A stretch of 20,041 nucleotides of DNA from a virus. The stretch covers positions 1 to 20,041 of the IMG/VR virus record IMGVR_UViG_3300049893_000420; one strand, given 5' to 3'. Position numbers and translations under genes: made by a program. Below the pieces are notes generated by a model. The model was not told the DNA's origin. It was given only the letters and a program-made list of their open reading frames with translations, and searched no databases. Below are positions 2,563-19,907 of this stretch, piece after piece (positions within the stretch are counted from its first letter, which is position 1; the number at the start of each line of letters is the position of its first letter).

Positions 2563-4125
2563 ATGTCCAAGACCATTGACGATCTGCGCGCATTAAGCGA
2601 TAGGATGTTCAAGAACCAGTTCCCCATGCTGTCGTTGTATCAGACACTGGCCGATCATTTTTACCCCGAGCGAGCTGACTTCACCATCACTCGCAACGTT
2701 GGTGCTGAGCTGGCGGACTCTCTTGTCGACTCCTACCCGGTTATGGTGCGGCGTGACCTGGGTAACTCGGTTCACGCCATGCTGCGTGATGGTGACTGGT
2801 TTAGCATCACCACGTCCGACCTGACTTACATGTCGCAGAACGTCAAGATGTGGTTGGAGTGGGCGAGTAACGTTCAGAAGCGCATGATGTACATGCGGGA
2901 TGCGGCGTTCACCAAGTCGGTGAAGCAGGGTGATCACGACTTTATGACATTCGGTCAGTGCGTCATCAGTGTTGAGATGAACCGTAAGCGTAATGGCCTG
3001 TTATATCGTAACTGGCATCTGCGCGATATGGCTTGGCGTGAAGATGAGACTGGGGCTGTCGGTGACATTACCCGTCGGTGGAAGCCGTGCAACGATGACC
3101 TGATCAAGATCTTCGGTGCTGACCGTCTGCATCCGAAGGTCGTTGAAGCGGCCCGCAAGGAGCCTTACTCTGAGGTGGACGTGCGTCATATCGTGATGTC
3201 GTCTGAGACCTACGGTGACGAACAGTATGCTCAGTTCCCTTATGTGAGCGTCTTCATTGATGTGACGAACAATCATATCATCGAGCTACGCGGTCTGCGC
3301 AACAAGTACTATGCTGTACCGAGATTCCAAACAATCGCGGGATCGCCCTACGCTTACAGTCCAGCAACCGTAGCTGGCTTGCCTGACGCTCGTGCGCTGC
3401 AAGCCATGACCCACACCCTGCTCGAAGCGGGTGAGCGGTACGCCCGCCCACCTGTCATCGCTACCATGCAGGCGGTTCGCTCTGACGTTGACTTATCACC
3501 TGACGGCATCACATGGTTGGACAAAGAGTATGACGAGCGCCTGGGTGCGGGTCTGCGACCACTGTTCCAGAACAGTGGTGGGTTTCCCATCGGGTTAGAG
3601 TTGCGCAGTGAGATCAAGAATGTACTGGCGTCGGCGTTCTATCTGAACAAGATCACGCTGCCACCAGCCGATCACGAGATGACGGCCTACGAGACAGCCG
3701 AACGTATGAAGCAGTACCGCCGTGAGGCATTACCACTGTTCCAGCCAGCCGAGTCCGAGTACAACGGTCAGATCTGCGAGATGACATTCGACCTGATGAT
3801 GGCGAACAACATGTTCGGATCGCACTATGACATCCCTGAAGAGTTACTTGGTCGTGACGTGGAGTTCAGATTCCAGTCACCATTGACAGCGACGGAGGAG
3901 GAGAAGAAGGTGAACCGGTTCCATCAGACTGCACAACTGCTGGCTGAAGCTGCGCAGTTCGATCAGACTGCCGTAGCTAACTTGAACTTCGACGCAGCGC
4001 TGCGTGAGGCCATTGCAGGCACAGGAGCGCCGAGCTACTGGTTGAACGACCCGCAGGTCGTCATGGAGAAGAAGGCAGCTCAACAAGCTGAGATGGCTGC
4101 ACAAGCGATGGCAGGTGCAGCGTGA
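2563..4125 (+). CDS. Portal protein (head-to-tail connector, T7 gp8-like)
   Basis: The portal is the dodecameric ring at one capsid vertex through which DNA enters and leaves. The 520-residue length is close to T7 gp8 (536). The N-terminal region (residues 25-86) shows the pattern of the head-tail connector family of T7-like phages: YQTLADHFYPERADF, then an asymmetric DSYPVMVRRDLGNSVHAML helix and GDWFSI. A long helix around residues 360-400 (SAFYLNKITL, then MTAYETAERMKQYRREALP) matches the region bordering the portal tunnel. The C-terminus (EKKAAQQAEMAAQAMAGAA) is Ala-rich helix. The ribosome site is weak (GGGATAA), so coupling to the upstream small gene 6 nt away is likely. The stop overlaps the next start by 4 nt. 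Confidence 0.93.
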   Translation: MSKTIDDLRALSDRMFKNQFPMLSLYQTLADHFYPERADFTITRNVGAELADSLVDSYPVMVRRDLGNSVHAMLRDGDWFSITTSDLTYMSQNVKMWLEWASNVQKRMMYMRDAAFTKSVKQGDHDFMTFGQCVISVEMNRKRNGLLYRNWHLRDMAWREDETGAVGDITRRWKPCNDDLIKIFGADRLHPKVVEAARKEPYSEVDVRHIVMSSETYGDEQYAQFPYVSVFIDVTNNHIIELRGLRNKYYAVPRFQTIAGSPYAYSPATVAGLPDARALQAMTHTLLEAGERYARPPVIATMQAVRSDVDLSPDGITWLDKEYDERLGAGLRPLFQNSGGFPIGLELRSEIKNVLASAFYLNKITLPPADHEMTAYETAERMKQYRREALPLFQPAESEYNGQICEMTFDLMMANNMFGSHYDIPEELLGRDVEFRFQSPLTATEEEKKVNRFHQTAQLLAEAAQFDQTAVANLNFDAALREAIAGTGAPSYWLNDPQVVMEKKAAQQAEMAAQAMAGAA

Positions 4126-5461: not shown

Positions 5462-5503
5462 ATTAACGGTACAAACTTAACTATTAATTTGAGGATACAT
5501 GAC

Positions 5504-6334
5504 ATGGCTGATTCAGCTTTTCAAACCATGTACCGTCAGGAATATTTAAAAGGATTCGAGAAACGCCAATCGTTACTTCGTAACACAGTAACAACCGAAG
5601 CGTTGGTCAGCGGCAATTCTGCCGTATTCCTTGTTGCAGATTCTGGCGGTGCGAGTGCAGTAACACGTGGTCTTAACGGCGATTTGCCGACCCGTGCCGA
5701 TAACCTTAACCAGTACACCTGTCAGTTGCGTGAATGGCATGATGTACCAGAACGTACCAATTTCAACATCTTCAGCTCTCAAGGCGATGGTCGTCGAATC
5801 ATGCAAGAAACCAGCATGAACGTCATCAATCGTAAGATTGACGAAGAAATTCATAATGCATTGATGAACGCCACGGTAACGTGGGGCGCTTCTGCTGCTG
5901 CAACTTTGACGTTGGTTACTACTGCCAAGACTAAGTTGGGTAATGCTTTTGCGTTGGACGATGACGATGTATTTGCTGCCATCACTCCTGCGTTCCATGG
6001 CTACCTGATGGGTCTGAACCAGTTCACATCTGCCGATTACATCACTCTGAAACCATTTGAAGGCGTATCGAAGTCACGCGCATTCAACTGGTACGGTGTG
6101 AACTGGATCGTTGATGCGGGTCTTCCTGGTGTTGGTACTGCTAATGCTACCTGTTTCATGTACTCTCGCAAGGCCATTGGTCATGCGATGGATACAGCGC
6201 GAACCAAGACTTATGTCGGTTACGATGAGAAGAACGACAAGTCTTGGGCACGCTGCACCGAGTACATGGGTTCTAAACTTCTACAGAACAGTGGTGTAGT
6301 GAAAATGCTGCACAACGATTCTGCGTTGAGCTAA
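5504..6334 (+). CDS. Major capsid protein
   Basis: This is the shell-forming protein of the head, 276 residues. The N-terminal half has the pattern of the Phage_capsid_2-type family of podoviruses, presumed to have the HK97 fold: SAVTRGLNGDLPTRADNLNQ (residues 51-70), a WHDVPERTNFNIF strand, then RRIMQETSMNVINRKIDEEI (97-116), the long spine-like helix. The C-terminal part (RAFNWYGVNWIVDAGLPGVG, then CFMYSRKAIGHAMDT) fits the axial domain. ATG at 5504 is chosen because GAGGA at 5491-5495 lies eight bases upstream. An in-frame TTG at 5489 overlaps that site and adds only five residues. No delta-domain or cleavage site is evident, in keeping with a separate scaffold gene. Confidence 0.93.
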   Translation: MADSAFQTMYRQEYLKGFEKRQSLLRNTVTTEALVSGNSAVFLVADSGGASAVTRGLNGDLPTRADNLNQYTCQLREWHDVPERTNFNIFSSQGDGRRIMQETSMNVINRKIDEEIHNALMNATVTWGASAAATLTLVTTAKTKLGNAFALDDDDVFAAITPAFHGYLMGLNQFTSADYITLKPFEGVSKSRAFNWYGVNWIVDAGLPGVGTANATCFMYSRKAIGHAMDTARTKTYVGYDEKNDKSWARCTEYMGSKLLQNSGVVKMLHNDSALS

Positions 6335-6349: not shown

Positions 6350-7270
6350 ATGGCTTATTCAACTAGCACACCTCCTGCGCGTGTCGCAGGACGAGCTGGT
6401 GCAACCGGTAATATCTGGTTGTATCGTTCTGCCGATTCATTGGCAACAGTGAGCGGAATTAACTACATCACCAATGCGGCTAAGCTTGGCATGACCCAAG
6501 GTGATATTGTGTTTCACATTGATACCACTAACGGTGTTACAACACAGTTAGCAGTAATCAACGGGGCGACTACGGGCACGGCCATTAACGGAACGACTAA
6601 CACGGCTGGTTATGCCGCTGGTGTTACCACCGTTACAGCGGCATCGGCTGGTACAGGTACAACTCTTGTAGGGGACGTGATCACGTTTGATAACGACCCT
6701 GAGAATGAGTATACCTTAACTGCTAACGCTGACGCTGACATTTCCAACGGCGCAACCCTGACATTTACGCCTGCACTTGTGACTGCAATCCCTGCTTCGG
6801 CAGTGGCTTGGAGAATCAAGTCAACTGTGCGTAACCTGACGGAAGGTGCTGTCGGTAACAAGCTGATCTCTGGTCAAGGTGCTACCAAGACTCTGACCAA
6901 GGCTGAAGCGGGTGCCACTGTGTTGTTTGACCGCGCTGCGGGTATTGTTTACACCCTGCCAACTCCTGTACCGGGTATGAAGTTCCGGTTCGTGGCGACG
7001 GTATCTGTAACCAGTAACGCCTACACGGTAAACACTTCAGCAGCTTCGGTATTCTTGGTTGGTAACGTTAACCAGATTATCGACACCTCCGCCACCAGCG
7101 AAGGTCAGGTAGCTAACGGTACGACTCACATTGGTATGGCCAGCAATGGTAGTACCACTGGTGGTCTGATTGGTAGCTGGACTGAGTTTGAAGCATTAAG
7201 CTCAACTCTGTGGCTGGTAAAAGGTATCCATGTGGGCTCCGGCACACTGGCAACACCGTTTACGACCTGA
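6350..7270 (+). CDS. Capsid decoration or head-fibre protein
   Basis: A 306-residue, Thr/Ala/Gly-rich, beta-strand-rich protein that probably binds the outside of the capsid. It directly follows the capsid gene behind a strong ribosome site. Three parts can be made out. Residues 1-70 contain GMTQGDIVFHIDTTNG. Residues about 100-160 carry GDVITFDNDPENEYTLTANA and then LTFTPALVTAIPASA, a beta-domain common in phage capsid-associated proteins. Residues 175-306 form a head-decoration type module starting ATKTLTKAEAGATVLFDRAA and ending near LWLVKGIHVGSG. The last module also occurs in head-fibre proteins of other phages. The assignment comes from pattern and position. The gene is followed at once by two intrinsic terminators. 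Confidence 0.75.
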   Translation: MAYSTSTPPARVAGRAGATGNIWLYRSADSLATVSGINYITNAAKLGMTQGDIVFHIDTTNGVTTQLAVINGATTGTAINGTTNTAGYAAGVTTVTAASAGTGTTLVGDVITFDNDPENEYTLTANADADISNGATLTFTPALVTAIPASAVAWRIKSTVRNLTEGAVGNKLISGQGATKTLTKAEAGATVLFDRAAGIVYTLPTPVPGMKFRFVATVSVTSNAYTVNTSAASVFLVGNVNQIIDTSATSEGQVANGTTHIGMASNGSTTGGLIGSWTEFEALSSTLWLVKGIHVGSGTLATPFTT

Positions 7271-7285
7271 TAACGGCCCACAACG

Positions 7286-7307
7286 ACCGCCCTTCGGGGC
7301 GGTTTTT
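7286..7307 (+). terminator. Rho-independent terminator 1
   Basis: ACCGCCC (7286-7292) and GGGCGGT (7297-7303) form a perfect 7-bp GC-rich stem around a TTCG tetraloop, and the right arm merges into TTTTT (7303-7307). It lies 15 bases after the decoration stop. This is a textbook intrinsic terminator. Confidence 0.93.
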
Positions 7308-7313
7308 GCCTTT

Positions 7314-7338
7314 GCCGGTACGGATTACCGGCCTTTTT
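7314..7338 (+). terminator. Rho-independent terminator 2
   Basis: GCCGGTA (7314-7320) and TACCGGC (7326-7332) form a perfect 7-bp stem with a 5-base loop, followed by CTTTTT to 7338. It begins six bases after the T-run of terminator 1. The next gene's GGAGA (7339-7343) starts immediately after the T-run, so read-through transcripts still carry a usable ribosome site. Confidence 0.88.
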
Positions 7339-7350
7339 GGAGAATGAATT

Positions 7351-7779
7351 GTGGAAATAACACCATTAAAACCCTCTCAATTACAGCTCGCTCAGTTCGG
7401 ATACCAACAATTTAACGTCGAACTTCCTGAACAAGTCAGTAAAGAAGCTCTGATTGATCCTGCCCTATGGGTACACAGTGCGACCAAGATGCGATTGAAT
7501 GACGAAGTTCGCATTGTAGACGCTGGTGGTACGATGTGGGCTAAGTTGATAGTCACTTTTGCCAACGGTCACGATGTCCGATTGCAGTTGTTGGAATACC
7601 GAATTTTCGAAGAAGAAGAGGTTCCAGAAGTACAAGAAGAACACTTCGTTAAGTTACGAGGTCAGCAAAAGTGGTGTATTATGAAACGAGGAAACCCTGA
7701 CCCGATCATCCAAGGTATCGCCACCAAGCACGATGCGGAACGGGAGAAGACTGAATATTTGCGCGCACTGAAGAGCTAA
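7351..7779 (+). CDS. Uncharacterised virion-region protein
   Basis: A 142-residue protein starting at GTG, seven bases after GGAGA. It is the first gene after the double terminator and lies 3 nt before the adaptor gene. Residues 45-90 (KMRLNDEVRIVDAGGTMWAK, then LIVTFANGHDVRLQLLE) look like a small beta-barrel. An acidic hinge EEEEVPEVQEE (about 89-99) follows. The last 40 residues (KWCIMKRGNPDPII, then GIATKHDAEREK) resemble the short beta-beta-alpha pattern in which a W/Y-x-V strand pair precedes a T-[KR]-x-x-A helix, seen at the ends of many phage hypothetical proteins. Position between capsid and adaptor suggests a structural or assembly protein. I do not recognise a defined function. Confidence 0.7.
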   Translation: MEITPLKPSQLQLAQFGYQQFNVELPEQVSKEALIDPALWVHSATKMRLNDEVRIVDAGGTMWAKLIVTFANGHDVRLQLLEYRIFEEEEVPEVQEEHFVKLRGQQKWCIMKRGNPDPIIQGIATKHDAEREKTEYLRALKS

Positions 7780-7782
7780 ACT

Positions 7783-8949
7783 ATGGCAACGACTCAACTG
7801 TCACTGTACAACGAAGCACTGCTCCTTGTAGGCGAGCGTGAACTGACCACTGTTACGGATGACGTTGAGGCGCGTTACCGTTTAGACACGGCGTATGCGA
7901 ATGGGGTGGACTACTGTCTTGAATTGGTCGCCCCTGTTTTCGCCCGTAAGACTTCCAAACTTACTACGTACACTACCAGCAGCCAACACGCTTACGATAA
8001 TGTGTTCACACTCCCTACTGATTACATCAGCATGGTCGAGTTGTACAGCGATGAGAAGCTGGATCAACCTATTTCACGGTACATCGTCGAAGGCGGTACG
8101 CTTGCCTGCAATTACACGACGATTTACCTACGGTATATCTCCAATGGTTACGCGCTTAGCCTGTGGGACAGATCTTTTGCCCAGGTTGTTGCTGCTTATC
8201 TGGCGAAGTCGGTCGCACCTCGGATTGCATCTGACGAGATGGAGAGAGTCTCTGCTGATTTCACTTCCAGGGTGCAAGAGGCTATCGCGCTGCGTCAGAG
8301 CAAAGAGCCTGACAAGCGATCAAGCAACGAGGGCGTCACCCTTACTAACGACTGGCGAGCGATTTATAACAATGCTCTGTTGTTATTGGGGCTTGATGAG
8401 ATCAACAGTAACAGCGACGACTCAGACCGCAAGGTGAAGTTGGACGTGGCCAGATCTTCGAATCTGATCGAGTATCTGTTGGAGAAGACAGGATGGCATT
8501 GGGCAATTCAATCGTATGAAGCCCAGTACAACCCGTCACTTGAGCCTGAGTGGGGTTACAACAGGGTATTCGACAAGCCTGACGACATGCACCGGCTGGA
8601 CGGCATCTTCGAAGACGAGATGATGCAATATCCATTGAAGACTTACAAAGACGAAGGTGAGTACATTTACACCAATGTTGATACGATTTACATCCAATTC
8701 GTCAGCAATGCTTACCTAACTATGCCTGGGTATTGGCCTTCGTACTTCAGACGCCTTGTGTCTGCGGCCATGGCGCGAGACGTAGCAAGTTCATTGGGTG
8801 TTGACCCAGGAATGCCTGACGCGATTTACAAAGAGATCGAAAGTGAAGCCAAGAATATCGATATCATGCAGTCACCACCACGTCGGATAGCCAGTGGTTC
8901 TTGGACTCGCGCTCGCTATTCTGGTGCACCCTATCGCGGGAGACCGTGA
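7783..8949 (+). CDS. Tail adaptor, tandem duplicated T7 gp11-like (tail tubular A)
   Basis: This is probably the ring connecting portal to tail nozzle. T7 gp11 is a single-domain adaptor of about 200 residues, whereas this product has 388 and consists of two related halves. Half 1 (residues 5-172) has SLYNEALLLVGERELTTV, YDNVFTLPTDYISM and TIYLRYISNGYALSLWDRSF. Half 2 (192-358) has AIYNNALLLLGLDEINSN, YNRVFDKPDDMHRL and TIYIQFVSNAYLTMPGYWPS, in the same order and at similar spacing. Each half has the helical bundle ending in a [VA]AAxxAxxVAxxx helix expected of gp11. The last 20 residues are Arg/Gly-rich. The stop overlaps the nozzle start (TGATG). The similarity is at protein level only, so the duplication is old. 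Confidence 0.88.
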   Translation: MATTQLSLYNEALLLVGERELTTVTDDVEARYRLDTAYANGVDYCLELVAPVFARKTSKLTTYTTSSQHAYDNVFTLPTDYISMVELYSDEKLDQPISRYIVEGGTLACNYTTIYLRYISNGYALSLWDRSFAQVVAAYLAKSVAPRIASDEMERVSADFTSRVQEAIALRQSKEPDKRSSNEGVTLTNDWRAIYNNALLLLGLDEINSNSDDSDRKVKLDVARSSNLIEYLLEKTGWHWAIQSYEAQYNPSLEPEWGYNRVFDKPDDMHRLDGIFEDEMMQYPLKTYKDEGEYIYTNVDTIYIQFVSNAYLTMPGYWPSYFRRLVSAAMARDVASSLGVDPGMPDAIYKEIESEAKNIDIMQSPPRRIASGSWTRARYSGAPYRGRP

Positions 8950-11525
8950 TGCCTCTGACCACTGTAATCAATAAGTTCAACCGGGGTGAGATCGGCAGTG
9001 AGTCGATAGCACGAGATGATATTGACCGGGTGAGAAATTCCGCAGCATTGATGACGAATTTCCTACCTACCCGGTTAGGCCCGATGGTGTATCGCCCAGG
9101 GCTTCAATGGAGGCTAACGGAAGACGGGTACACTTACACAGTACCGTTCGTCAAAGGTATCAACGACAAGGCCATATTGTTATTCAGCGATGGTGAACTG
9201 CGTATCGTGGTGAACGACGCGATTGTCACTCGCACCACAGTAGCTTCAACCATTACCAATCCGAACTTCACCAGTAACATCACCGGATGGACAGTTGCAG
9301 ACGGTGTGGGGTCGTCGTCAGTATGGGCAGCGGGGTATGCCAGCCTCACTGGCGCAGGATCGACATCTGCCAATATTTACCAGACCATCACCACTACAGC
9401 GGTGCCTCATGCGGTACGCATTGTGATTGCCGAAGCGCCTGCTCGTATTCGAATCGGAACCAGTGGTGTGAGTAGTTCGAATATTTTTGACGGTACGCTT
9501 GATCCAGGGACACATTCGATTCTGTTTACACCTGCGTCGAACCCGACCATCACAGTGACGAATTCTGACAACATTCGCACGCTGATCGGTAGCATTGACT
9601 TCGAGACGACCGGTGATTTCATTCTGCCGACGACCATCACAGCGGCAGATCTTCCCTATATCCGGTATCATCAATCGGCTGATGTGGTGTTCATTGCAGT
9701 ACGTGACCAAGCACCGATCAAGGTTGAACGACGCGGTACATACTCATGGGGTATCGCTGACTATCGCGCTAACAACGGGCCGTTTGGTACGATCAACATT
9801 ACTGAAGTATCACTGACAGCGGCGGCGCTCAGTGGGAACACGACGTTGACTGCTTCTGCGGCATTGTTCAAGTCGACAGATGTCGGTGCATTGTACAAGC
9901 TCACTTCAGCGGGTCAGAACGTAGCTGTTGAAGTAAACGCTCAGGACAATGGGACAGGCTCTATTCGGGTCACAGGGGTCACAGGATCACGGATTTTCAC
10001 CATCAACATCAGTGGTACGTTCGTCGCAACGGTCACTTTACAACGGTCTGCTGATAACACCATCTGGGAAGACTTGAGCCCGACATACTCAGGCGTCACC
10101 AGTACCACCTATGACGACGGGTTCGACAACTCGATTTTATACTATCGTCTATGGGTCAAAACTGGGAGTTTTACATCGGGGCCGGTCGTACTCAGCATGA
10201 ATTATTCATCAGGTGCGATTACAGGCATAGCCAGAGTGACCGCTTACACCAGTTCTACCGTAGTGAGTGTTCAGGTGTTGGAAGACTTCGGTGCTACAGT
10301 GGCTACACGTGACTGGTATAAAGGTCAATGGAACGCAACAGACGGGTATCCGTCGGCCCTGTGCATTTATGAAGGTCGGCTGTTCTTCTCCGGTAGTAAC
10401 CACATATGGGGTTCGGAGTCGGACAGCTACTATTCGTTTGATGATACTGTGACCGGAGGCAGTGCGCCGATTAGCCGAACAATCGGTATCGGCCCAGTGG
10501 ATGACATCAACTGGATCTGCCCGACTTCTCGGCTGTTGATTGGATTACCAAACGAAGATTTGTTGATGCGTTCGAATGCGTTTGGTGAGGTAATGACCAA
10601 TGATAATGCGAACATCAAGGATAACAGCGGTCAGGGGTCGTCCATCTGCGACTTTGTGAAGTCTGGTCAAGCTGTTTACTTCGTGCACCATACCACGACC
10701 AAGCTGATTCGATTATTTTACGATGTGCAGCTTGATGCGCATGAAAGCGAAGATTTGATGGTCATGCACCCTCAGATTGCTTCGGTAGGTATCAAGCGTA
10801 TGGCTGTTTCCAGACAACCAGAAAACCGACTGTGGTTGATATTGGAAGACGGTGATTGTCTTGTACTACTGAACGATCTAACTGAACAGGTTACCGCATG
10901 GGCGAGGTTAGAGACCGACGGATCATTCGATGATGTTGTCGTGCTCCCAGGGACATCAGAGGATCAGGTGTATTTCTCGATAAATCGTAACGGAACATAT
11001 CATTTGGAAAAGCTGACTATGTTTAGCGAGAGTCATCCACATGATTCTCATGTTCGTTACACATCACCCGGTACGACATTGACAGGGTTAACCCATCTAA
11101 ACGGTGAAACCATTGGTGTCTGGGCAGACGGTGCCGACCTGGGCGATTATGTCGTGTCAGGTGGATCGGTTACGATTGCAGCGGGCAAGACCAATGTCAC
11201 TGCTGGGCTTCGTTATACGGCGGATTATCAGTCTAACAAAATAGCCGAATACACGGAATACAGCGTGCTGACTCGACGAGCGCGAATTGAGAACGTGGCG
11301 TTCATTGCGTCTAACCTATACGGCCCAGGTTTGAGTGTCGGCCTGGATTCTGCTAATCTCAGGGTTATCGAAGGGTACGATGGTGCAAGTTATGATCAAG
11401 ACTCCTTCCCGTTCAACGGGAGTTATGACACCAACTCACGAGTATGGATACGCGCAACAGCTCCTTGCATGATAAAAGCGGTGGTCTATGGCGTCCGAGA
11501 ATCCGAAAGTAAGACCAATAACTAG
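8949..11525 (+). CDS. Tail nozzle protein, T7 gp12-like (tail tubular B)
   Basis: This forms the tail tube below the adaptor. ATG 8949 is chosen over an upstream in-frame ATG at 8901. It overlaps the preceding stop (TGATG), and the protein then opens with the family's usual INKFNRGEIGSESIARDDID and NFLPTRLGPMVYRPGLQW (residues 7-54). The product has 858 residues versus 794 for T7 gp12. The extra length appears to lie in two beta-rich insertions. Residues about 101-219 resemble a carbohydrate-binding jelly roll (NPNFTSNITGWTV, then IYQTITTT and THSILFTPASNPTITV). Residues about 341-425 resemble an Ig-like strand set (TVTLQRSADNTIWEDL, then ILYYRLWVKTGSFTSG). The core resumes with WYKGQWNATDGYPSALCIYE (456-475). 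The next gene starts 38 nt before its end. Confidence 0.9.
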   Translation: MPLTTVINKFNRGEIGSESIARDDIDRVRNSAALMTNFLPTRLGPMVYRPGLQWRLTEDGYTYTVPFVKGINDKAILLFSDGELRIVVNDAIVTRTTVASTITNPNFTSNITGWTVADGVGSSSVWAAGYASLTGAGSTSANIYQTITTTAVPHAVRIVIAEAPARIRIGTSGVSSSNIFDGTLDPGTHSILFTPASNPTITVTNSDNIRTLIGSIDFETTGDFILPTTITAADLPYIRYHQSADVVFIAVRDQAPIKVERRGTYSWGIADYRANNGPFGTINITEVSLTAAALSGNTTLTASAALFKSTDVGALYKLTSAGQNVAVEVNAQDNGTGSIRVTGVTGSRIFTINISGTFVATVTLQRSADNTIWEDLSPTYSGVTSTTYDDGFDNSILYYRLWVKTGSFTSGPVVLSMNYSSGAITGIARVTAYTSSTVVSVQVLEDFGATVATRDWYKGQWNATDGYPSALCIYEGRLFFSGSNHIWGSESDSYYSFDDTVTGGSAPISRTIGIGPVDDINWICPTSRLLIGLPNEDLLMRSNAFGEVMTNDNANIKDNSGQGSSICDFVKSGQAVYFVHHTTTKLIRLFYDVQLDAHESEDLMVMHPQIASVGIKRMAVSRQPENRLWLILEDGDCLVLLNDLTEQVTAWARLETDGSFDDVVVLPGTSEDQVYFSINRNGTYHLEKLTMFSESHPHDSHVRYTSPGTTLTGLTHLNGETIGVWADGADLGDYVVSGGSVTIAAGKTNVTAGLRYTADYQSNKIAEYTEYSVLTRRARIENVAFIASNLYGPGLSVGLDSANLRVIEGYDGASYDQDSFPFNGSYDTNSRVWIRATAPCMIKAVVYGVRESESKTNN

Positions 11526-11844
11526 AACAGACTTATTGGCGTTTTACGATGAGCCGTTTGAACAATCACTGCGCGGGTTAACAGTTGAGCTGAAAGGAGA
11601 ACCTGTGCTGGTCGCGTTCGTTATCAATACTAGCCCACCTCAAGCGGTAAGCTGGATCAAGGACGAACTGCGCAGATATCCTAAGTGGATCATGCGTGCA
11701 GCCAGAGAGTTCAAGAAGATACTGAGCAGATACCCTTGTGACATTTATGCAATAGCAGACGACGAAGAAATGAATTCCGAGACATTTTTACAGCGGATTG
11801 GATTTGAACATTTTTATAAGCGAACATACGTATGGCAAAATTAA
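11488..11844 (+). CDS. gp13-like virion protein with degenerate acetyltransferase (GNAT) fold
   Basis: A 118-residue protein encoded directly after the nozzle, in the position of T7 gene 13, a virion assembly protein. The start VRPITRTDLLAFYDEPFEQS and the end DEEMNSETFLQRIGFEHFYK match the first strand-helix and the motif B region of GNAT acetyltransferases (N-x-x-[ST]-x-x-F-L-x-x-x-G-F). The central acetyl-CoA-binding motif A (Q/R-x-x-G-x-G/A) is absent: the middle reads RAAREFKKILSRY. Catalysis is therefore unlikely and a structural use of the fold is inferred. ATG at 11488 follows GGTGG and lies 38 nt inside the nozzle gene. The stop lies 13 nt inside the next gene. Confidence 0.65.
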   Translation: MASENPKVRPITRTDLLAFYDEPFEQSLRGLTVELKGEPVLVAFVINTSPPQAVSWIKDELRRYPKWIMRAAREFKKILSRYPCDIYAIADDEEMNSETFLQRIGFEHFYKRTYVWQN

Positions 11845-12314
11845 TCGACGCTGGTTTTGGTTATCTGGAAGGACGGCAAGCCAAGTACGCTGCTGATGCG
11901 GAGGCTAAGCAGATGGAATTGGCTGCGGCTGCACGTCGTGCAGCAGGAACCCAAGACGCTTACGAACAACGTAAGATTGGTGAACAAGTTGCTTCTGATG
12001 CGATTGCTGCGATGGCAGCAGGCGGTGGGGGAGTTAGCGATAACATACTGGCCGATATCAAGACAACTGCCGATTACAATGTACTGTCGACACTGTTTGC
12101 AGGCGAGCAGGAGGCGAAGGGAATGATTTATGCTGCCAAGCTGAAGAAGCACGAAGGCAAGATGGCTAAGAGAATGGCGACAACAAAGAGTCTTGTAAAT
12201 GTAGGCGAAGCGGTAGGTAGCGCGGTCGCGGGAGGGGCACCAAAAGGAGGTAGTGCCAATCCAGTAGGCGGCGGGCGTGGCGGTGGTGGCGGTTTTGGGA
12301 GAGGGAGAGGGTAA
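11832..12314 (+). CDS. Small internal virion protein candidate (gp14-like position)
   Basis: A 160-residue protein, first of three ejection-protein candidates. The N-terminal 60 residues are an Ala-rich amphipathic helix (KYAADAEAKQMELAAAARRA and onward). Residues 60-120 continue as helix with a conserved-looking DNILADIKTTADYNVLS. The last 35 residues are almost only Gly, Ala, Arg, Pro, Ser and Asn, ending GGGRGGGGGFGRGRG. Ala-rich helical proteins of this size occupy the gp14 position in T7-like phages, where they form the outer-membrane pore for DNA delivery. Role is inferred from composition and order, as I see no diagnostic motif. It starts 13 nt inside the preceding gene and its stop shares one base with the next ATG (TAATG). 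Confidence 0.7.
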   Translation: MAKLIDAGFGYLEGRQAKYAADAEAKQMELAAAARRAAGTQDAYEQRKIGEQVASDAIAAMAAGGGGVSDNILADIKTTADYNVLSTLFAGEQEAKGMIYAAKLKKHEGKMAKRMATTKSLVNVGEAVGSAVAGGAPKGGSANPVGGGRGGGGGFGRGRG

Positions 12315-14095
12315 TGCCAACTATTCCACGTCTTGAACGTCGCACAGTCACACCCAGTTCACGGATCAGCTCTGTTGCTACGCCGAACCTCAGTGCGCTT
12401 GGGGAGCAGATAAGCGGTGCTGTAGAACGCATTAAAGATAAGCGTACTCAGTATCAAATCGCTGAAGCTCGCAGCAAGTTCAATATCCTTCTTCACCAGC
12501 AGAACAGTGCTTACGATAACGACGATGACCACGAAACAATTGTCCCCCGATGGGAACAGTCTGTTTCTGAAGGAGTGGACGGACTCATTAAGAATATCAG
12601 TGATCCAGAAGCACGTAACTTATTCATGTTAGACGTTCAGGAGCGTGTCGAAGCCAACCGTCCACGGATCAATGCACTTGCTTTTTCGAAGGAAAGCGAC
12701 AAGAAGGTCGCTGACCTGATGACTGATGCTGAGAAGGCTCACAAAGAAATAGTGGAGACTGACGATCCTATTGAAGCTGAACACATGATCAATAGTTTGA
12801 ATGACCGTGCTACTAAAATGGCAGAAGTCGGGTGGATGAAGGACACCACTGCGGTTGAATTTAAACAGCGGTTCAAACAAGAAGCGGCATTAGGCCGACT
12901 TATGAAGGCAGCACCTGCTGATCGAAAGAAATTGTTACAAGACGATATTATTAAGAACAATGTTCCACCAGAAAAATTGGCTGAGCTTGAACGACAAGTA
13001 GATGATGATTTGTTAAACGATCAGGCTGAGCAAATTGTCACATCTCTCGGTAGCAATTTCTCACTGTCTGACCTGTGGAAAGCGACATCTAAGATTGAGA
13101 ACACCGACCTCAAACGAAAAGTAGAGATCCGTGGTGAAGACGTACATAAGAACATCAAGGCAGCGAAGTTGGAGATGTCAGAAAATCTCTATCAACGAGA
13201 GTTTTTATCAGTACTAATGGGTGAAAAAAAGCTGGACACCAATAGTACAGAATTTAATGCAATGCTTCCACAACATAAGTCCATTTTGGTTCGTGTCGAT
13301 CAGGCGAGAAAAGTGCCTCCGAAAACATCAAACATTTGGACGATTGATAAGTTGAACGGTTACATTGCAAAAAAGGACTACGAGGGTCTTCGCAAGTTCC
13401 TCATCACTCCTGATCCTAAGACAGGACGAATCGAACTTGAACATCTTGCACCAAAGGATCAGGCGTTCTTTTCAAAAATCTCACAACAGGGTGAAGTTCC
13501 CGAGGATTGGGATTCACCTTTCACAGTTGCTCAAACAATTGCCTCCGAATTCGGTTTAGGAAATAGTAATAGTGACGTTGCCACTATGAACGCAGTTCGA
13601 AATCATGTATTAACTTGGATGGAAAGACAAGCTAACGCAAACGTGAAAATCACTGATAAAGACACACTTGATGAAATACGAAACGCTCATGCCGCTATTG
13701 AGTTAGATCCGACTGCTACTGGTTTATTTGATAGCAAGGAAGAGAAACAGTATTACAAGTTGGACGATGAAGAGCGTGTACAGATGATTGATGTCACTCT
13801 CAAGAACCCGTCGAAAGTGAAAGATGCGCAACTTAACATAGTCATGCGTGACATGTTGGAAAACGACAAGACTGACCGTTTCGAAGAGGTGCTGAATGTC
13901 GGGTTAGCGGAACCTGAACGACTCAGTCCTAAAAATCAAGAACGATTTGTTAAAAAAATAGCGACAGAGTTTGACCCGGAATTGTCAGAAATGATCATCA
14001 ACACAGCATACAAATTGACAGGGCGATATCCTAACAATCAGCAATTCTTGGAGTTCTACGAGAGTGAGCGAAGAAAGCGAAGAAAACAGCCTTAA
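12314..14095 (+). CDS. Internal virion (ejection) protein, gp15-like position
   Basis: A 593-residue, strongly charged, Cys-free protein predicted to be nearly all helical, without a signal peptide or membrane segment. Genes of this size and composition after nozzle and gp14-like genes encode the periplasmic tube protein of the T7-type ejectosome. The opening MPTIPRLERRTVTPSSRISS followed by repeated helical segments rich in D, E, K and R (for example KKLLQDDIIKNN near residue 204) is usual for podovirus internal proteins. It overlaps the preceding stop by one base behind a purine-rich GAGAGGG ribosome site, and the next gene begins 32 nt before its end. The middle of the gene (about 13,150-13,700) is AT-richer than its ends. 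No enzymatic motif is visible. Confidence 0.75.
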   Translation: MPTIPRLERRTVTPSSRISSVATPNLSALGEQISGAVERIKDKRTQYQIAEARSKFNILLHQQNSAYDNDDDHETIVPRWEQSVSEGVDGLIKNISDPEARNLFMLDVQERVEANRPRINALAFSKESDKKVADLMTDAEKAHKEIVETDDPIEAEHMINSLNDRATKMAEVGWMKDTTAVEFKQRFKQEAALGRLMKAAPADRKKLLQDDIIKNNVPPEKLAELERQVDDDLLNDQAEQIVTSLGSNFSLSDLWKATSKIENTDLKRKVEIRGEDVHKNIKAAKLEMSENLYQREFLSVLMGEKKLDTNSTEFNAMLPQHKSILVRVDQARKVPPKTSNIWTIDKLNGYIAKKDYEGLRKFLITPDPKTGRIELEHLAPKDQAFFSKISQQGEVPEDWDSPFTVAQTIASEFGLGNSNSDVATMNAVRNHVLTWMERQANANVKITDKDTLDEIRNAHAAIELDPTATGLFDSKEEKQYYKLDDEERVQMIDVTLKNPSKVKDAQLNIVMRDMLENDKTDRFEEVLNVGLAEPERLSPKNQERFVKKIATEFDPELSEMIINTAYKLTGRYPNNQQFLEFYESERRKRRKQP

Positions 14096-16004
14096 TGCCA
14101 CTATCCTCAGAGTCATGGGCGGGCCTGCACCAGAGACTACACCTGATGACATTGAGCCTGTAACGGAAGATTCGACTGGTCTTGAAGAACTTATTATTGA
14201 GAGAATGGGTGGGGCTACCACACCTCCTGATCTGATTGAGTTAACACCTCAAACACCATCAAACCTCAAGCACGCGATGGACAAAGATCCAGACCGGCAG
14301 GCGGCTGTCTATCAACTTGCCGAAGCGCTTGACGCTAGTCCGACCACCGTTGAGAACAACTTCGACGAAGCGAAGAAACGACAACGACTTTCCGAGTTCG
14401 AAGCACTGAAGAACCCCGCTCTTTCGAGGTTCCTTGCTAACCAGGAGAACGCTGAAGTATCGCATGATGACATCGGTGTGCTGTCTGAGATTGCAAACCA
14501 CCTAGGTGCGTTCAACTCGGGTGTGTTGTCGTTCCCAAGTACCTTCTTCGGCGGTGCTGGGGAGACGATGGAGATAGGCAAGCGGAAGATAAAGGAATAT
14601 TTGCCAGAAGGTCTTGCTGAGTTTCTCACTACTCCGATCACCTTGATTGAGCCAGAGAAAGGGGAAAAGGTTAAAACACTGACCGACGCACTGTTCGGTG
14701 CAGAGGAAAAGCTCAACGAGGCGCGTGAGTGGTTATCTCCGGCAAAACTGTCTGAAGGTCGTACCAGTATGCAGGTCGCAGGTGCGATAGGTCAGGTTGC
14801 CTCGCAGATTGCAACCATGCTTGTGGCACCACAGATGCTTGTACCCACACTGTTCACATCAGGTGTTGAACAGCAGGCTGAACGGCAGAAACAGTCAGGC
14901 ACCTACGGTGAGAGTGACAGCGCACTTGTTGCGAGCGGGATGGTGACCGCTACGATTGAGAAGCTTGGACTTGATAAACTGTTAAACCGTGTCCCATTGG
15001 AAGTCAAAAACTCCGTTATGCGGAAGTTGACTGACGTGGGTATCGGTGGCGGTATTGAAGCGTTAACCGAGGTGACCGAAGCGATTGGTCACAACCTGAT
15101 CGAGAAGTACTCAACGAATCCAGACGCTAAGATATTTCAAGGAGTTGAACAAGAAGCAACGGTGGCCGGTATTACGGGCGGAATTATCAGAGCTTTACTT
15201 CCCTCCTACAGAGGCAATGTCAAGAGTAAAACCACCACAGGTGCTATGGATGTTATTCAGCAGACCATGGTGGAACAGCAGTTCCTCGACAAACACATCA
15301 AGCTGCTTCAGGAAAGTACGACAGCTAAGCGCAGTTCTAAAGTATTCAAACGGTTCGAGGATGACATCGGTGAGAACACCGAGGTTAGGATCAATCCTGC
15401 TGCATTCGAAGGACTCCAAGTACCCGACTATGTTAAAGAGCAGATTGACGGACTGGGTAGTGATGTTGTTGTAACAATGAGTCAGCTCGCCAAGGACTTT
15501 GTAAATAATCCAGAACTGCTTAAAGCGGCTCGTCCACACATGCGTGTTAATGAGAACACGATGACGCAGAACGAGGTTGATACCGGTGCGGGCGATACCA
15601 TCAAGAACTTGATGGAAGAAGCCAAGGCGAACGCTGAACTCAAGAGCGAAGCTGATGCTATCTTCAAAGATATCGTAGATCAGCTCGTCGCTACAGGTCG
15701 CATGTCGAAGGAAAGCGCACGAATGAACGCGGTGCTGATCCCTGCGTATATCACTGTGAAGGCGAAGGAGACCGGGTATAGTGTGGCTGAGATTTATAAG
15801 AGGATGAACCTCACCATCACTAAGGCTGAACCCAGGGTTAGACCTAAACCAAACTTCGGGGATGAAAAAATCACAACTGAAGACGTATTGGAAGAGACTG
15901 GGCAGAAGACGAAAGTACGCGAATTGAAACAAGTGGTGTACGATAGAACAGTAAAACGACTGAACATGATCACTAAGTTGCGAGATTGCGTAAATGCCAA
16001 TTAG
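14064..16004 (+). CDS. Large internal virion (ejection) protein
   Basis: A 646-residue protein, third of the ejection candidates. It begins at GTG 14064, ten bases after GGAG, 32 nt inside the preceding gene; an in-frame ATG at 14115 is a weaker alternative. The N-terminus holds two similar segments, ATILRVMGGPAPETTPDDI (12-30) and ELIIERMGGATTPPDLIEL (42-60), in an acidic disordered stretch. Residues 235-265 (MQVAGAIGQVASQIATMLVA, then PQMLVPTLF) and 326-380 contain Gly/Ala-rich hydrophobic helices that could insert in membrane. The C-terminal region has LVATGRMSKESARMNAVLIP (541-560) and YSVAEIYKR, a pattern common near the ends of large polyvalent phage virion proteins. No lysozyme or transglycosylase active site is apparent, unlike T7 gp16. 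Confidence 0.72.
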   Translation: MSEESEENSLNATILRVMGGPAPETTPDDIEPVTEDSTGLEELIIERMGGATTPPDLIELTPQTPSNLKHAMDKDPDRQAAVYQLAEALDASPTTVENNFDEAKKRQRLSEFEALKNPALSRFLANQENAEVSHDDIGVLSEIANHLGAFNSGVLSFPSTFFGGAGETMEIGKRKIKEYLPEGLAEFLTTPITLIEPEKGEKVKTLTDALFGAEEKLNEAREWLSPAKLSEGRTSMQVAGAIGQVASQIATMLVAPQMLVPTLFTSGVEQQAERQKQSGTYGESDSALVASGMVTATIEKLGLDKLLNRVPLEVKNSVMRKLTDVGIGGGIEALTEVTEAIGHNLIEKYSTNPDAKIFQGVEQEATVAGITGGIIRALLPSYRGNVKSKTTTGAMDVIQQTMVEQQFLDKHIKLLQESTTAKRSSKVFKRFEDDIGENTEVRINPAAFEGLQVPDYVKEQIDGLGSDVVVTMSQLAKDFVNNPELLKAARPHMRVNENTMTQNEVDTGAGDTIKNLMEEAKANAELKSEADAIFKDIVDQLVATGRMSKESARMNAVLIPAYITVKAKETGYSVAEIYKRMNLTITKAEPRVRPKPNFGDEKITTEDVLEETGQKTKVRELKQVVYDRTVKRLNMITKLRDCVNAN

Positions 16005-16428
16005 TCGAGAAGAACTGGAAGAGATGCGGAAGTCCGGTGCGGAGATCGAAATCGAACCGCAACGGTTGGTTGTTGAAGGGTTAATCGAACAACTGAAGGC
16101 GTTGGTGCCTGACAATTCTGCGGTGTTATCCGAGATCAAAAAATTGACGGAAGCAATTAGTAAACTCGCCGCACACAGCACCGTTGTTGAGTGCACGCCA
16201 ACAATTGACTGTACACCGAGGGTCGAATCGGTGAATAATGTGACTGTGGATACTACACCATTGATCCAAGCCATTGACAGAATGATGCACCGACCTGATT
16301 ACCGCTTTACGATAACCAGGAATAACCGAGGGTTCATCGAGTCAATGAATGCGGAGGTAGTCGAAAGAAATGATCATAATCACAGTACTGGTCATTATCG
16401 CAGCAGTAGCGATTGCATGGTTCGTTGA
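15994..16428 (+). CDS. Uncharacterised phage protein with conserved C-terminal beta hairpin
   Basis: A 144-residue acidic protein. Its ATG lies 11 nt inside the preceding gene. The N-terminal 60 residues look helical and suited to coiled-coil (MPISREELEEMRKSG, then LSEIKKLTEAISKLAAH). Residues 65-90 repeat an acidic-x-[CT]-T-P motif three times (VECTP, IDCTP, VDTTP). YRFTITRNNRGFIESMNAEV (101-120) resembles a short element common in podovirus proteins: aromatic, alternating strand, R-[DN]-x-x-G, strand. The last 20 residues, His/Ser-rich, overlap the small membrane-protein gene in another frame and are probably not constrained. Function unknown; a virion or tail-assembly role is inferred from position. 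Confidence 0.7.
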   Translation: MPISREELEEMRKSGAEIEIEPQRLVVEGLIEQLKALVPDNSAVLSEIKKLTEAISKLAAHSTVVECTPTIDCTPRVESVNNVTVDTTPLIQAIDRMMHRPDYRFTITRNNRGFIESMNAEVVERNDHNHSTGHYRSSSDCMVR

Positions 16429-16516
16429 TGGATTGTGGGCGAGGCGCATGGATGAGCGAGACAAACAGATCTACTCAGAGACTCAGGATTATTACGAGGG
16501 GCGTGAAGATGATTAG
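16370..16516 (+). CDS. 48-residue single-span membrane protein
   Basis: A short open frame with ATG at 16370 and TAG at 16514-16516. GGAGG lies at 16353-16357, 12 bases upstream, and purine-rich GAAAGAA directly precedes the start. The product begins with one strongly hydrophobic helix (residues 2-18, IIITVLVIIAAVAIAWF). A basic pair (ARR, 24-26) and a highly charged, Asp/Glu-rich tail follow. The charge pattern suggests N-terminus outside and C-terminus in the cytoplasm. It overlaps the gene before by 59 nt and the secreted-protein gene after by 8 nt. Small one-span proteins in late phage operons include holin-like and spanin components, but nothing specific identifies either. It could also be an anchor partner for the next gene's product. 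Confidence 0.65.
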   Translation: MIIITVLVIIAAVAIAWFVDGLWARRMDERDKQIYSETQDYYEGREDD

Positions 16517-16901
16517 AGTATTGCTGATCACAGTATTGCTACTGTTGTGTAACGCGGTTAGCGCTGCGACTATCGAGCTGACGTGTGATAAACCGACGTT
16601 GCGCGAGGATGGCACGGCAATCTCGTCAATCAGTGGCTATCGACTCTATTACAGTTACAATCAGGCCTCACCGGCTGTTATCGACATAGTGGGCGACAAA
16701 TGCGGCTATACGATGCCCAACGCTGATCCTGGTATGTATGAGTTCGCTATCAGCACAGTAGAGGGCAAGTTGGAAGGGCGTAAATCAGCTCCGGTTCAGG
16801 TAACAGTACTATCAACAGCCAATGCGCCTACATTTACAAAACTTACGATTACTAATTGCTACGGCCCAAATAATTGTGTAACTCAGGAGATCAGTCAGTA
16901 A
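16509..16901 (+). CDS. Secreted protein with signal peptide and fibronectin III-like domain
   Basis: A 130-residue product with a clear Sec signal peptide: basic MIR, hydrophobic core VLLITVLLLLC, and an AVSA cleavage region at residues 16-19. The mature part (about 25-101) has the strand pattern of a fibronectin type III domain: GYRLYYSYNQASPAVIDIVG, a turn with CGYTMPNADPGMYEFAIS, and a final strand SAPVQVTV. Four Cys in the mature chain (C26, C65, C117, C123) could form disulfides in the periplasm. C14 inside the signal is not a lipobox, because the preceding residues are LLL. GAGGGG at 16496-16501 lies seven bases before ATG 16509 and selects that start over upstream in-frame codons at 16413 and 16503. 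A phage protein exported during infection may serve lysis, exclusion or surface binding; function is unknown. Confidence 0.75.
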   Translation: MIRVLLITVLLLLCNAVSAATIELTCDKPTLREDGTAISSISGYRLYYSYNQASPAVIDIVGDKCGYTMPNADPGMYEFAISTVEGKLEGRKSAPVQVTVLSTANAPTFTKLTITNCYGPNNCVTQEISQ

Positions 16902-17119
16902 TGCAGATAACAAAAGTTCATAAGTCTAAGGACGGTAAAATCTCTGTCAGATTCGCAAATAAACTTGGTGTAGCGTTTGATAGTATGGATGAAGTGAACC
17001 TACTGGTTGATAGCATCCCGTTCAATATAAAAGTGGCATTAGCCTTATTTGGTTTATCAAATCTAAATGATGCTGTAGGTTTGGATATAGATTCAGTAAA
17101 GACTAAGGTGATTAAATGA
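16901..17119 (+). CDS. Small hypothetical protein
   Basis: A 72-residue protein of unknown function. ATG 16901 shares a base with the preceding stop (TAATG), and its own TGA (17117-17119) overlaps the next ATG. The N-terminal third is basic (ITKVHKSKDGKISVRFANKL, residues 3-22) and may form a beta hairpin. The remainder is mixed, with a mildly hydrophobic IPFNIKVALALFGLSNL (45-61) that is too short and polar to be a sure membrane span. The gene is AT-rich (23 of 60 bases G+C at 16921-16980) compared with about half in the gene before it. I recognise no family. Confidence 0.7.
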   Translation: MQITKVHKSKDGKISVRFANKLGVAFDSMDEVNLLVDSIPFNIKVALALFGLSNLNDAVGLDIDSVKTKVIK

Positions 17120-18234
17120 CTGCAACAGCATTACCGCATCCAGTTGTCTTAGCCCCGTTTTACGGAGGATTTACAGGTACTGGGGTTGGTTCAGCAAATA
17201 ATTTTCAATTTAATGCTGCTGGAGATAAATTAGCTATTCTATTTATAGCCCAATCATCTACTGTACCTGATTTAATATCATTTGTCGTATCAACAGTTAC
17301 TACTGCTGGATCTGCTGGAAATATAGAAGCAACGTTAGAAAATGTAACTACTGGTGATCCTTCCGGTGCTGTAACTAATTCAGCAACTGGATCAGCAACT
17401 ATTTCAACCGCTGATAATCATACTATTTCTGGTATGGCAGGTACTGCAACTATAACGGCTGGTACTGTATACGCTGTAGTTTTAACAGCAGGAGCAGGCT
17501 GGAACAGAGATTTAGAAATAAGATTAGCAACAGGCATAAACGTTCTGGTTGCATTCCCTACTGTTAAAACTAAAGAGTCAGCAGGTTCTTGGACTAGAGA
17601 TGCAAACAATAACTCTGGATGGTGTTTTGGGTTAGCTGATTCAGGCGGTACTTATATGCAAGTGGCTGGGCTACTAGGTGCCTATACTTGTTCAACTCAA
17701 TCATTCGGATCTGGAACAAATCCAGATGAACGTGGAAATAGATTTTCATTAAATGTGCCCATGACTTGTATTGGCGCTAGGGTTTTATGGTCAGGTGGAT
17801 CTGCTCCAGGTGCGAATGATGACGTTAAAATTAAACTACTATCGTCACATACCTCATCTCCAGTAGCAGAAAAATCAGTTACATTAGAAGGTGAAGTTTA
17901 TGCTGGCGAGCTTCATCACGATATTATGTTTGGTAGTGGGTTTAGTTGTGCAGCAGGAACTACTTATGCAATTACTATGGAAGCTATGGGTACAGATACT
18001 CAAGCCATGGTGAGATGGGATTGGCCATCTAACACACATTTAGCGGGTGTAGTTGGTACATCATTTTATGCTACTACTCGAAATGATTTAGGTAATTGTA
18101 CAGATGATAATAATAGCATCTATGGCATATTTCCTATTTTCTCACACGCAGATGATGGTGCTGGTGGAGGGGGTGGAGCTACTGCGAGCGGAGTTGTGGG
18201 GATACAAGCAATAGGTACTGGGGTGATAGCATGA
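17116..18234 (+). CDS. Probable tail or adhesin protein with two beta-sandwich repeats
   Basis: A 372-residue, Gly/Thr/Ser/Ala-rich protein without a signal peptide, probably a surface-exposed virion component because it lies between the ejection genes and the tail-fibre gene. Two halves appear related. In half 1 (about 20-185) TITAGTVYAVVLTAGA is followed by LEIRLATG. In half 2 (about 195-345) SCAAGTTYAITMEAMG is followed by MVRWDWPS. Both are preceded by strands of a jelly-roll kind. A Gly5 linker (350-354) leads to a hydrophobic C-terminal tail (SGVVGIQAIGTGVIA) that may dock onto the tail. The gene is AT-rich for this window (18 of 60 G+C at 17221-17280). It overlaps both neighbours by 4 nt. 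Host binding is inference. Confidence 0.65.
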   Translation: MTATALPHPVVLAPFYGGFTGTGVGSANNFQFNAAGDKLAILFIAQSSTVPDLISFVVSTVTTAGSAGNIEATLENVTTGDPSGAVTNSATGSATISTADNHTISGMAGTATITAGTVYAVVLTAGAGWNRDLEIRLATGINVLVAFPTVKTKESAGSWTRDANNNSGWCFGLADSGGTYMQVAGLLGAYTCSTQSFGSGTNPDERGNRFSLNVPMTCIGARVLWSGGSAPGANDDVKIKLLSSHTSSPVAEKSVTLEGEVYAGELHHDIMFGSGFSCAAGTTYAITMEAMGTDTQAMVRWDWPSNTHLAGVVGTSFYATTRNDLGNCTDDNNSIYGIFPIFSHADDGAGGGGGATASGVVGIQAIGTGVIA

Positions 18235-19907
18235 CTCGAATAGCAAGTGGAGTTACCGATCAGTATATTTATTTTGTTGCTGTTGACGCAACAGATCTGA
18301 AAACACGAGAGACAGGGTTAGCAACGTGGACTGTATACCGTTCGCGTAATGGCGGTGCTTCAGCGGCATTCACGACACCTACGATAAACGAGACTGATTC
18401 TACCAATATGCCTGGTGTTTACGAACTATTGCTTGATGAAGATATGACCATTGATGCTGGAGATGAGACACAAGAAATGGTGTTCCATATTACCCATGCA
18501 GGCATGGCACCAGTAACTCGAACCATTGAACTGTATCGACCAAAAATCACTGCTGGTAACACCCTAGATGTTACTGCAACTGGAGCAGCAGGTATTGACT
18601 TGGGTAATGTTGAAAATCCAACAACGTCACTAGCGTTGACGAATACAACAGTAGGTACAGTAACCAACATCACCAATAACCATGCTAAGTACATGTTAGG
18701 TGCTGTATGGATAGGCCCGGCTGTAAACACTAACACCGTATCATGGGTTGATGGTATTACAACCAACCCTGTCAGTACAGTTGCAGCAGCTAAGACAATT
18801 GCTGATGCTTTGGGTTTGCGTAAGTTTATGATTGTCAGATCGGGCACAGTACAGATCGGTGCGGATATGACGAACTATGATTTCGTTGGTGATCAATGGT
18901 CGTTAACCACTACTGGCGGTTCCAGAGACGTATCTCTTTCCAGTTTTTATAACGCATTAGTCGTTGGGGGAACATACGCTTCCACTTCCGGAGCCCCTCA
19001 TTGGGAGAGATGTGAGTTTTCTACAGGGGTGTCCATCGCGAATGGAGATCTCCATCATTGCCTATTTGCCGGAACGTTAACACTTAATTCTGTAGGTGAT
19101 TATGACTTCATAGATTGTACGTCTATTGTTGCTGGCACGAGTGCTCCTGTATTTGCTTGTGGTTCACCCGCATCTGCATTGAATCTTTCTTACCGTCGAT
19201 GGTCAGGTGGTATCACTATCACTGGTATCAATTCAAACTGCACAATATCAATTGACGCAGTTAGTGGTGGGACAGTAACTTTGCAAGGTGTTGACGGTAC
19301 GGTACACGTTAGAGGCATGGTAAATCTGGACGATCAGCGTACTGGTACACCTACATTGGTTCAAACTCAACGAATTAACCAAGCCAATATCAGAGCAGCA
19401 GTAGGCTTAGCCACGGCGAACCTGGATACTCAACTATCTGCAATTGATGACTATGTCGATACTGAAATTGCAGCACTGACCACAGAGCTGGCAAAAGTAC
19501 CAAAATCAGATGGCACGTCTACTTGGAATGCTACTGCATTAGCCTCGATTCAGCAGGAAGCTACCGATGCTCTTAACGCTTATGACCCGCCGACCAACAC
19601 TGAGTTTGAAGCTCGCACACCCACTGCTGCACAACTTGCCTATATCGTGGCTAATGCAGCAACAGGGCTCCCTGTAACCTTCACTACAGCAGGTGGGTCA
19701 ACTACCGCTGCTGTACTTAACCAAGTAGATGGAGCTGCCGCTAGTGCGACGAACGATCAGTACAATGGTCGTTTACTGGTGTTCACCGACGGTACACTGA
19801 AGGGTGTGGTGACAGATATTACTGATTATGTTGGTTCAACAACAACAGCAACCATTACCGCAATTCCGACTGCACCGACCTCATCTCACAACGCGAGGTT
19901 GATCTAA
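18231..19907 (+). CDS. Modular tail protein (tail fibre or tailspike type)
   Basis: A 558-residue protein probably attached to the tail and contacting the host. Domain order: an N-terminal beta-domain (residues 8-102, YIYFVAVDATDLKTRETGLA, then MPGVYELLLDEDMTIDAGDE), a type common at the start of phage tail and baseplate-associated proteins; a linker; and a probable right-handed beta-helix (about 165-367). The helix opens SWVDGITTNPVSTVAAAKTI and continues with short turns such as FVGDQWSLTTTGG, HWERCEFSTG and HHCLFAGTLTL. A helical segment (375-455) ends in DALNAYDPPTNTEFE, followed by a C-terminal beta-domain (478-558, YNGRLLVFTDGTLKGVVTDI). All these modules recur in tail proteins of many phages. 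No catalytic residues of a depolymerase can be assigned. The ATG overlaps the preceding stop (ATGA). Confidence 0.8.
   Translation: MTRIASGVTDQYIYFVAVDATDLKTRETGLATWTVYRSRNGGASAAFTTPTINETDSTNMPGVYELLLDEDMTIDAGDETQEMVFHITHAGMAPVTRTIELYRPKITAGNTLDVTATGAAGIDLGNVENPTTSLALTNTTVGTVTNITNNHAKYMLGAVWIGPAVNTNTVSWVDGITTNPVSTVAAAKTIADALGLRKFMIVRSGTVQIGADMTNYDFVGDQWSLTTTGGSRDVSLSSFYNALVVGGTYASTSGAPHWERCEFSTGVSIANGDLHHCLFAGTLTLNSVGDYDFIDCTSIVAGTSAPVFACGSPASALNLSYRRWSGGITITGINSNCTISIDAVSGGTVTLQGVDGTVHVRGMVNLDDQRTGTPTLVQTQRINQANIRAAVGLATANLDTQLSAIDDYVDTEIAALTTELAKVPKSDGTSTWNATALASIQQEATDALNAYDPPTNTEFEARTPTAAQLAYIVANAATGLPVTFTTAGGSTTAAVLNQVDGAAASATNDQYNGRLLVFTDGTLKGVVTDITDYVGSTTTATITAIPTAPTSSHNARLI

Follow-up and report, generated by a model that had tools for sequence, protein, structure and literature searches.

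A predicted exported fibronectin III-like protein near the fibre-position genes of a podovirus and its possible periplasmic role

The stretch of DNA analysed here (the window, a 20,041-base virus record) encodes, shortly before its fibre-position genes, a small protein, ORF B, with a predicted signal peptide and a fibronectin III (FN3)-like domain. We favour the reading, with a probability of about 0.35, that ORF B is a Sec-exported periplasmic accessory protein that would alter the envelope around the phage receptor. The strongest negative result concerns the small membrane gene overlapping it, ORF A: the pair was not conserved in the one relative that shared ORF B at this locus.

Gene content of the window

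The whole window represents the structural module of an epsilon15/BPP-1-type podovirus, with the following features.

558-2048: large terminase
2563-4125: head-tail adaptor or portal
5489-6334: major capsid protein, on the basis of PF19821
7783-8949: tail protein
8901-11525: tail protein
11832-12314: T7 gp14-like internal virion protein
12314-14095: large protein in the ejection-protein position
14064-16004: large protein of 646 aa in the ejection-protein position
15994-16428, plus strand: upstream neighbour of ORF A, 144 aa, no assigned function, homologue in the related contig L086
16370-16516, plus strand: ORF A, 48 aa, one N-terminal transmembrane span
16509-16901, plus strand: ORF B, 130 aa, predicted signal peptide and one FN3-like domain
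16509-16565, plus strand: putative signal-peptide region of ORF B, N-terminus matched in the L086 homologue
16901-17119, plus strand: 72-aa protein after ORF B, no assigned function
17116-18234, plus strand: 372-aa protein in the tail-fibre position, fibre role assigned solely by position

ORF A and ORF B sit in a run of coupled late genes. After position 16004 the order is the upstream gene, ORF A, ORF B and the 72-aa gene, followed by the large fibre-position genes; ORF B is coupled to the 72-aa gene through TAATG, and the 72-aa gene to the 372-aa gene through ATGA. A model reading made earlier without database searches (the sequence-only reading) had placed the pair within a run of virion genes, and the gene content agreed. 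The 72-aa protein yielded neither a family match nor a homologue, and the 372-aa protein had no family match. No tRNA or Rfam RNA was found in the window, no terminator-like site was found near ORF A and ORF B, and promoter-like sites did not exceed their number in shuffled sequences.

The window terminase was 47% identical to the terminases of Synechococcus phages PP438432 and OM868079, while the window capsid protein had no match in either record, which suggests exchange of the packaging gene.

ORF A, a probable small membrane protein

ORF A runs from an ATG at 16370 to a stop at 16516 (48 codons), with GGAGG, a possible ribosome site, 12 nt upstream. It overlaps ORF B by 8 nt (16509-16516), and GAGG lies about 9 nt upstream of the ORF B start; the described overlap with a ribosome site for each gene was thus found as claimed. 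Hydropathy and codon score likewise supported the description of ORF A as a one-span protein of 48 codons. Residues 1-18 were strongly hydrophobic (17-residue mean hydropathy 3.05), and the in-frame codon score was 0.197, compared with a mean of -0.13 (sd 0.16) for 83 unannotated ORFs of 40-75 aa, one of which reached that value. For ORF A and ORF B alike, the score was best in the gene's own frame.

At its start (16370-16428), ORF A shares sequence with the 3' end of the upstream gene as well. L086 encodes a homologue of the upstream protein (44% over 124 columns), and L200 a weak match (E 0.003). The L086 protein ends at about window codon 123 and the window copy continues for about 21 residues into ORF A; the extra residues therefore look like an overrun. 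ORF A starts close to where the upstream gene stops in L086.

No homologue of ORF A was detected anywhere searched, including the phage collection by single-sequence search, and the small proteins of the relatives had no similarity to it. Unlike ORF B, ORF A thus rests on sequence statistics, and it is probably a real gene, as yet unconfirmed. No Lys or Arg precedes the span and four occur in the next 15 residues, so that by the simple charge rule the C-terminus, with about 28 residues after the span, may lie inside. ORF A matched no holin family in PHROGs or Pfam; its best spanin profile match had an E of 0.15, and a weak match to defence systems had an E of 0.038. These values, together with the lack of a lipobox, strict or relaxed, in ORF B and its L086 homologue, upheld the earlier remark that spanin, holin and lipoprotein signatures fit poorly. 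The possibility that ORF A arose as a duplicate of the FN3 gene's 5' end was also considered and rejected, the 11/12-base match (shuffle p 0.045) being too weak.

ORF B, its export signal and its FN3-like fold

ORF B (ATG 16509, stop 16901, 130 codons) is a real, little-described accessory gene. Its hydrophobic N-terminus ends in VSA^A, with small residues at -3 and -1 of the putative cleavage site, and fits a Sec signal with predicted cleavage, placed by eye, after VSA at residue 19. This is the only hydrophobic stretch, with no C-terminal span. The mature protein would have a mass of about 11.9 kDa and a pI of 4.7.

Three weak but agreeing lines suggest that the mature part is a single FN3-like domain. 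The Pfam PF00041 match of ORF B (E=0.004) scored 17.7 bits, short of the curated 25, and phmmer aligned the protein to the designed FN3con 4u3h with E=0.024. Nearly all PDB matches listed by Foldseek for its AlphaFold2 model were FN3 domains (prob 0.99-1.00); the best E was 6.5e-3 and none fell below 1e-3, with a query model of modest quality (mean pLDDT 60.5). The model of the L086 homologue was poor (pLDDT 49.9).

Cysteines occur at residues 14 (within the signal peptide), 26, 65, 117 and 123. The earlier description of ORF B as a signal-peptide, FN3-like protein with four mature cysteines was borne out, but the cysteines were not conserved: the L086 homologue (E 3e-15, 41% over 87 aa) has none, and the four cysteines were rejected as a family signature. 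In the pairwise alignment, Cys 26 faces a tryptophan and Cys 65 a serine/threonine stretch of the L086 protein. From these positions, ORF B of the window phage may use a disulfide in place of a packing contact in the core.

A single-sequence search with ORF B returned nothing from the phage collection or the viral contigs. Among viral contigs, L086 was the single match of the two-sequence FN3 alignment, which gave none among genome contigs; the upstream-gene alignment again had L086 as its only match. ORF B had no match to defence systems. Its first 54 residues scored 14.1 bits against an NCBIfam secreted-effector family (cut-off 72 bits), which was judged chance because the match covers mostly the signal region.

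Related contigs and the slot before the fibre-position genes

Related contigs were found through alignments of the terminase, tail protein and capsid. The closest relative found was L086 (42.9 kb, tail protein 64% identical), in which the ORF B homologue, also with a signal-like N-terminus, occupies the same place after the upstream gene and before a fibre-position gene. There the FN3 gene comes next after the upstream gene, so ORF A is absent. The coupling in L086 was exact, with ATGA before the FN3 gene and TAATG after it, leading directly into a 1161-aa fibre-position protein.

The sequence-only reading had taken ORF A and ORF B for a functional pair and had named failure to co-occur in relatives as the outcome against it. 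That outcome was found, in one relative: L086 keeps the FN3 gene without the membrane gene before it, and the two therefore do not form a conserved unit. In the best explanation, the small membrane protein ORF A is specific to this lineage and separate from the FN3 protein, which does not require it. Adjacency and overlap alone, as this comparison illustrates, should not be taken to mean a functional pair.

Other relatives carried different genes at the same place. In L087 the slot lacks an FN3 gene. In L200 and L210, whose capsid is 69% identical to that of the window, the slot encodes a small lipoprotein alongside a single-span protein and a small membrane protein that is holin-like; the lipoprotein matched Rz-like spanins weakly (E 0.01 and 0.03). 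Since L086 has the FN3 gene alone, L087 none, and L200/L210 a lipoprotein with membrane proteins, the envelope genes in this slot vary between relatives. In G007, the gene before a fibre-position gene resembles, by eye, the upstream gene of the window.

The large protein before the slot also varied in length: 646 aa in the window, 656 in L086 (14838-16808), 1434 in L087 (14965-19269), 2535 in L179 (5362-12969) and at least 2225 in L211 (11998-18675, where the locus end cuts the gene). The range apparently reflects fusion with large multi-domain proteins. L211 also encodes, at 7181-7636 (minus strand), a 151-aa protein that matched a response-regulator receiver domain (PF00072, E 9e-22), beside genes for small membrane proteins. 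This contig has been binned into a Muricauda genome assembly. The capsid relatives L199-L207 are contigs assigned to assemblies of Glaciecola, Muricauda, Rhizobium, Mesorhizobium and other Hyphomicrobiales, which hint at hosts of the phage group.

Other small exported FN3 genes

A PF00041 search of 42 related records gave three matches, all below the cut-off: the window, Manatee Spring phage MW202742 and a 242-residue gene of G015 without a signal-like start. A small signal-bearing FN3 gene was thus seen in 2 of the 42 records. The count bears on the earlier claim that phages seldom export such a domain, and it is too low, since PF00041 missed the L086 homologue.

The MW202742 protein (18797-19147; Pfam E 0.002) has a predicted signal peptide and two mature cysteines and is annotated as "rim binding protein 2 domain". 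MW202742 is a podovirus with a related tail protein, and its FN3 gene lies on the opposite strand, away from the virion genes. ORF B had no direct sequence match to this protein at the thresholds used. L087 carries a weak FN3-like gene next to a helicase-like one, in a region without virion genes. The kinship of ORF B to the proteins of L087 and MW202742 is weak, perhaps no more than a shared fold. FN3-like genes at such unrelated places are easier to reconcile with a mobile accessory gene than with a part of the virion. A limited literature search returned no description of a family of FN3 proteins exported by phages. A small protein of L185 (6643-7047, minus strand), with a hydrophobic N-terminal stretch and no family match, adjoins the L087 FN3-like gene.

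Proposed role of ORF B and alternatives

Phages often carry small exported proteins that alter the host envelope. ORF B would be expressed late, together with the tail-fibre genes, exported through Sec, and released into the periplasm after signal cleavage. The mature protein could then bind an envelope component, plausibly the phage's own receptor or its surroundings, and infected cells or debris would stop taking up progeny, through superinfection exclusion or receptor masking. The periplasmic role is suggested by the position kept in L086 between the upstream and fibre-position genes and by the signal-like N-terminus in both proteins. Superinfection exclusion by the FN3 protein alone is possible; ORF B had no sequence similarity to any exclusion protein.

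It is doubtful that the exported FN3 domain, alone or together with ORF A, serves as an accessory lysis factor that helps to disrupt or modulate the envelope when the cell lyses, for instance by regulating a holin from the periplasm or as an extra outer-membrane factor. The lipoprotein, holin-like and single-span proteins in the L200/L210 slot point in this direction, as does ORF A, itself a small membrane protein. However, L086 encodes an M23 peptidase, a holin-like protein (phrog_4712, E 1e-4) and a lipoprotein (ITGC lipobox) further downstream, and L087 has holin-like and lipoprotein genes at the end of its late run and an M23 peptidase gene on the other strand. The FN3 gene is thus not needed in these relatives as the lysis device, one of the roles that the earlier reading had suggested for the pair. 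In addition, the L086 FN3 gene stands without a membrane partner, and with neither a lipobox nor a C-terminal span ORF B is neither an o-spanin nor a u-spanin.

A virion component, in which the N-terminus would stay uncleaved and the FN3 domain would be a small accessory of the tail or fibre or a coat on the particle, is unlikely. ORF B belongs to a continuous virion gene run and, in both the window and L086, its translation is coupled to that of the fibre region; phage tail proteins contain FN3-like domains, several viral Foldseek matches of ORF B were tail proteins, and P0003 matched tail-protein profiles. The N-terminus, though, is that of a typical signal peptide, with its small residues, also in L086. 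Paired cysteines would suggest an oxidising compartment, but without conservation. The MW202742 and L087 genes, which lie outside virion runs, argue against a fixed virion role.

An inner-membrane/periplasm complex of ORF A and ORF B is very unlikely. The two genes are adjacent and overlapping, each with a ribosome site, and their predicted locations are complementary; yet ORF A is missing from the closest relative having ORF B, had no homologue anywhere searched, and with a tail that by charge may be cytoplasmic would offer almost nothing periplasmic for contact. Action outside the cell, for instance on host surface polysaccharide or neighbouring cells, is very unlikely: FN3 domains are common extracellular modules in bacteria and release at lysis would expose the protein, but no secretion route beyond Sec was suggested and no binding-domain family match reached the cut-off.

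If the periplasmic accessory role is correct, a soluble exported FN3-like domain beside fibre genes of environmental podoviruses would be a new fold among exclusion proteins, and the fibre-neighbour position is a simple clue for finding more such genes. More speculatively, and with low probability, single exported FN3-like domains may form a dispersed, undescribed class of phage accessory proteins that close an outer-membrane receptor from the periplasm; such a class would parallel the lipoprotein exclusion factors but would have another fold and lack a lipid anchor.

Comparison with known systems

FN3/Ig-like domains of phage virion proteins have the same broad fold as ORF B but sit inside larger proteins, whereas ORF B is a single domain with a predicted signal peptide. 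The MW202742 protein is alike in being small, with a signal peptide and one FN3 domain, but its gene differs in genomic place and strand. The standalone SH3 protein of Drexlerviridae (PMC13164509) is also a single small beta domain from a variably present accessory gene; it is SH3 rather than FN3 and tied to the lysis cassette, while the two closest copies of the ORF B type are both linked to the fibre region.

Rz/Rz1-type spanins resemble the locus in that the gene for an exported protein comes after, and overlaps, that for a small membrane protein, and in having cysteines. The o-spanin, however, is an outer-membrane lipoprotein with a lipobox (PMC6139136), which ORF B lacks, and the topology of ORF A looks opposite to that of an i-spanin. 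ORF A has no periplasmic domain and does not combine an inner-membrane span with reach across the periplasm, ORF B does not carry the N-terminal lipoylation signal and C-terminal span of a unimolecular spanin, and the pair is not conserved.

The exclusion proteins compared here are coliphage lipoproteins. T5 Llp is a small periplasmic protein that acts on the periplasmic face of FhuA and whose gene lies next to the receptor-binding protein gene (PMC9586334); Rtp45 works like Llp, on LptDE, and carries a disulfide (PMC12685063). Llp is small, exported and encoded beside a receptor-binding gene, and ORF B is small, signal-bearing and near fibre genes; Rtp45 and Cor of T1-like phages are also small and exported, and the ORF B cysteines could pair as in Rtp45. 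ORF B differs from Llp in being FN3-like, with a predicted role, and from Rtp45 in that its cysteines are not kept in L086; it also lacks the lipoprotein signal of Llp/Cor-type proteins. Fibre-gene adjacency, small size and likely periplasmic location are what it has in common with Llp and Rtp45, and on this analogy we propose, with modest confidence, that ORF B would work like T5 Llp or T1 Cor while belonging to neither family.
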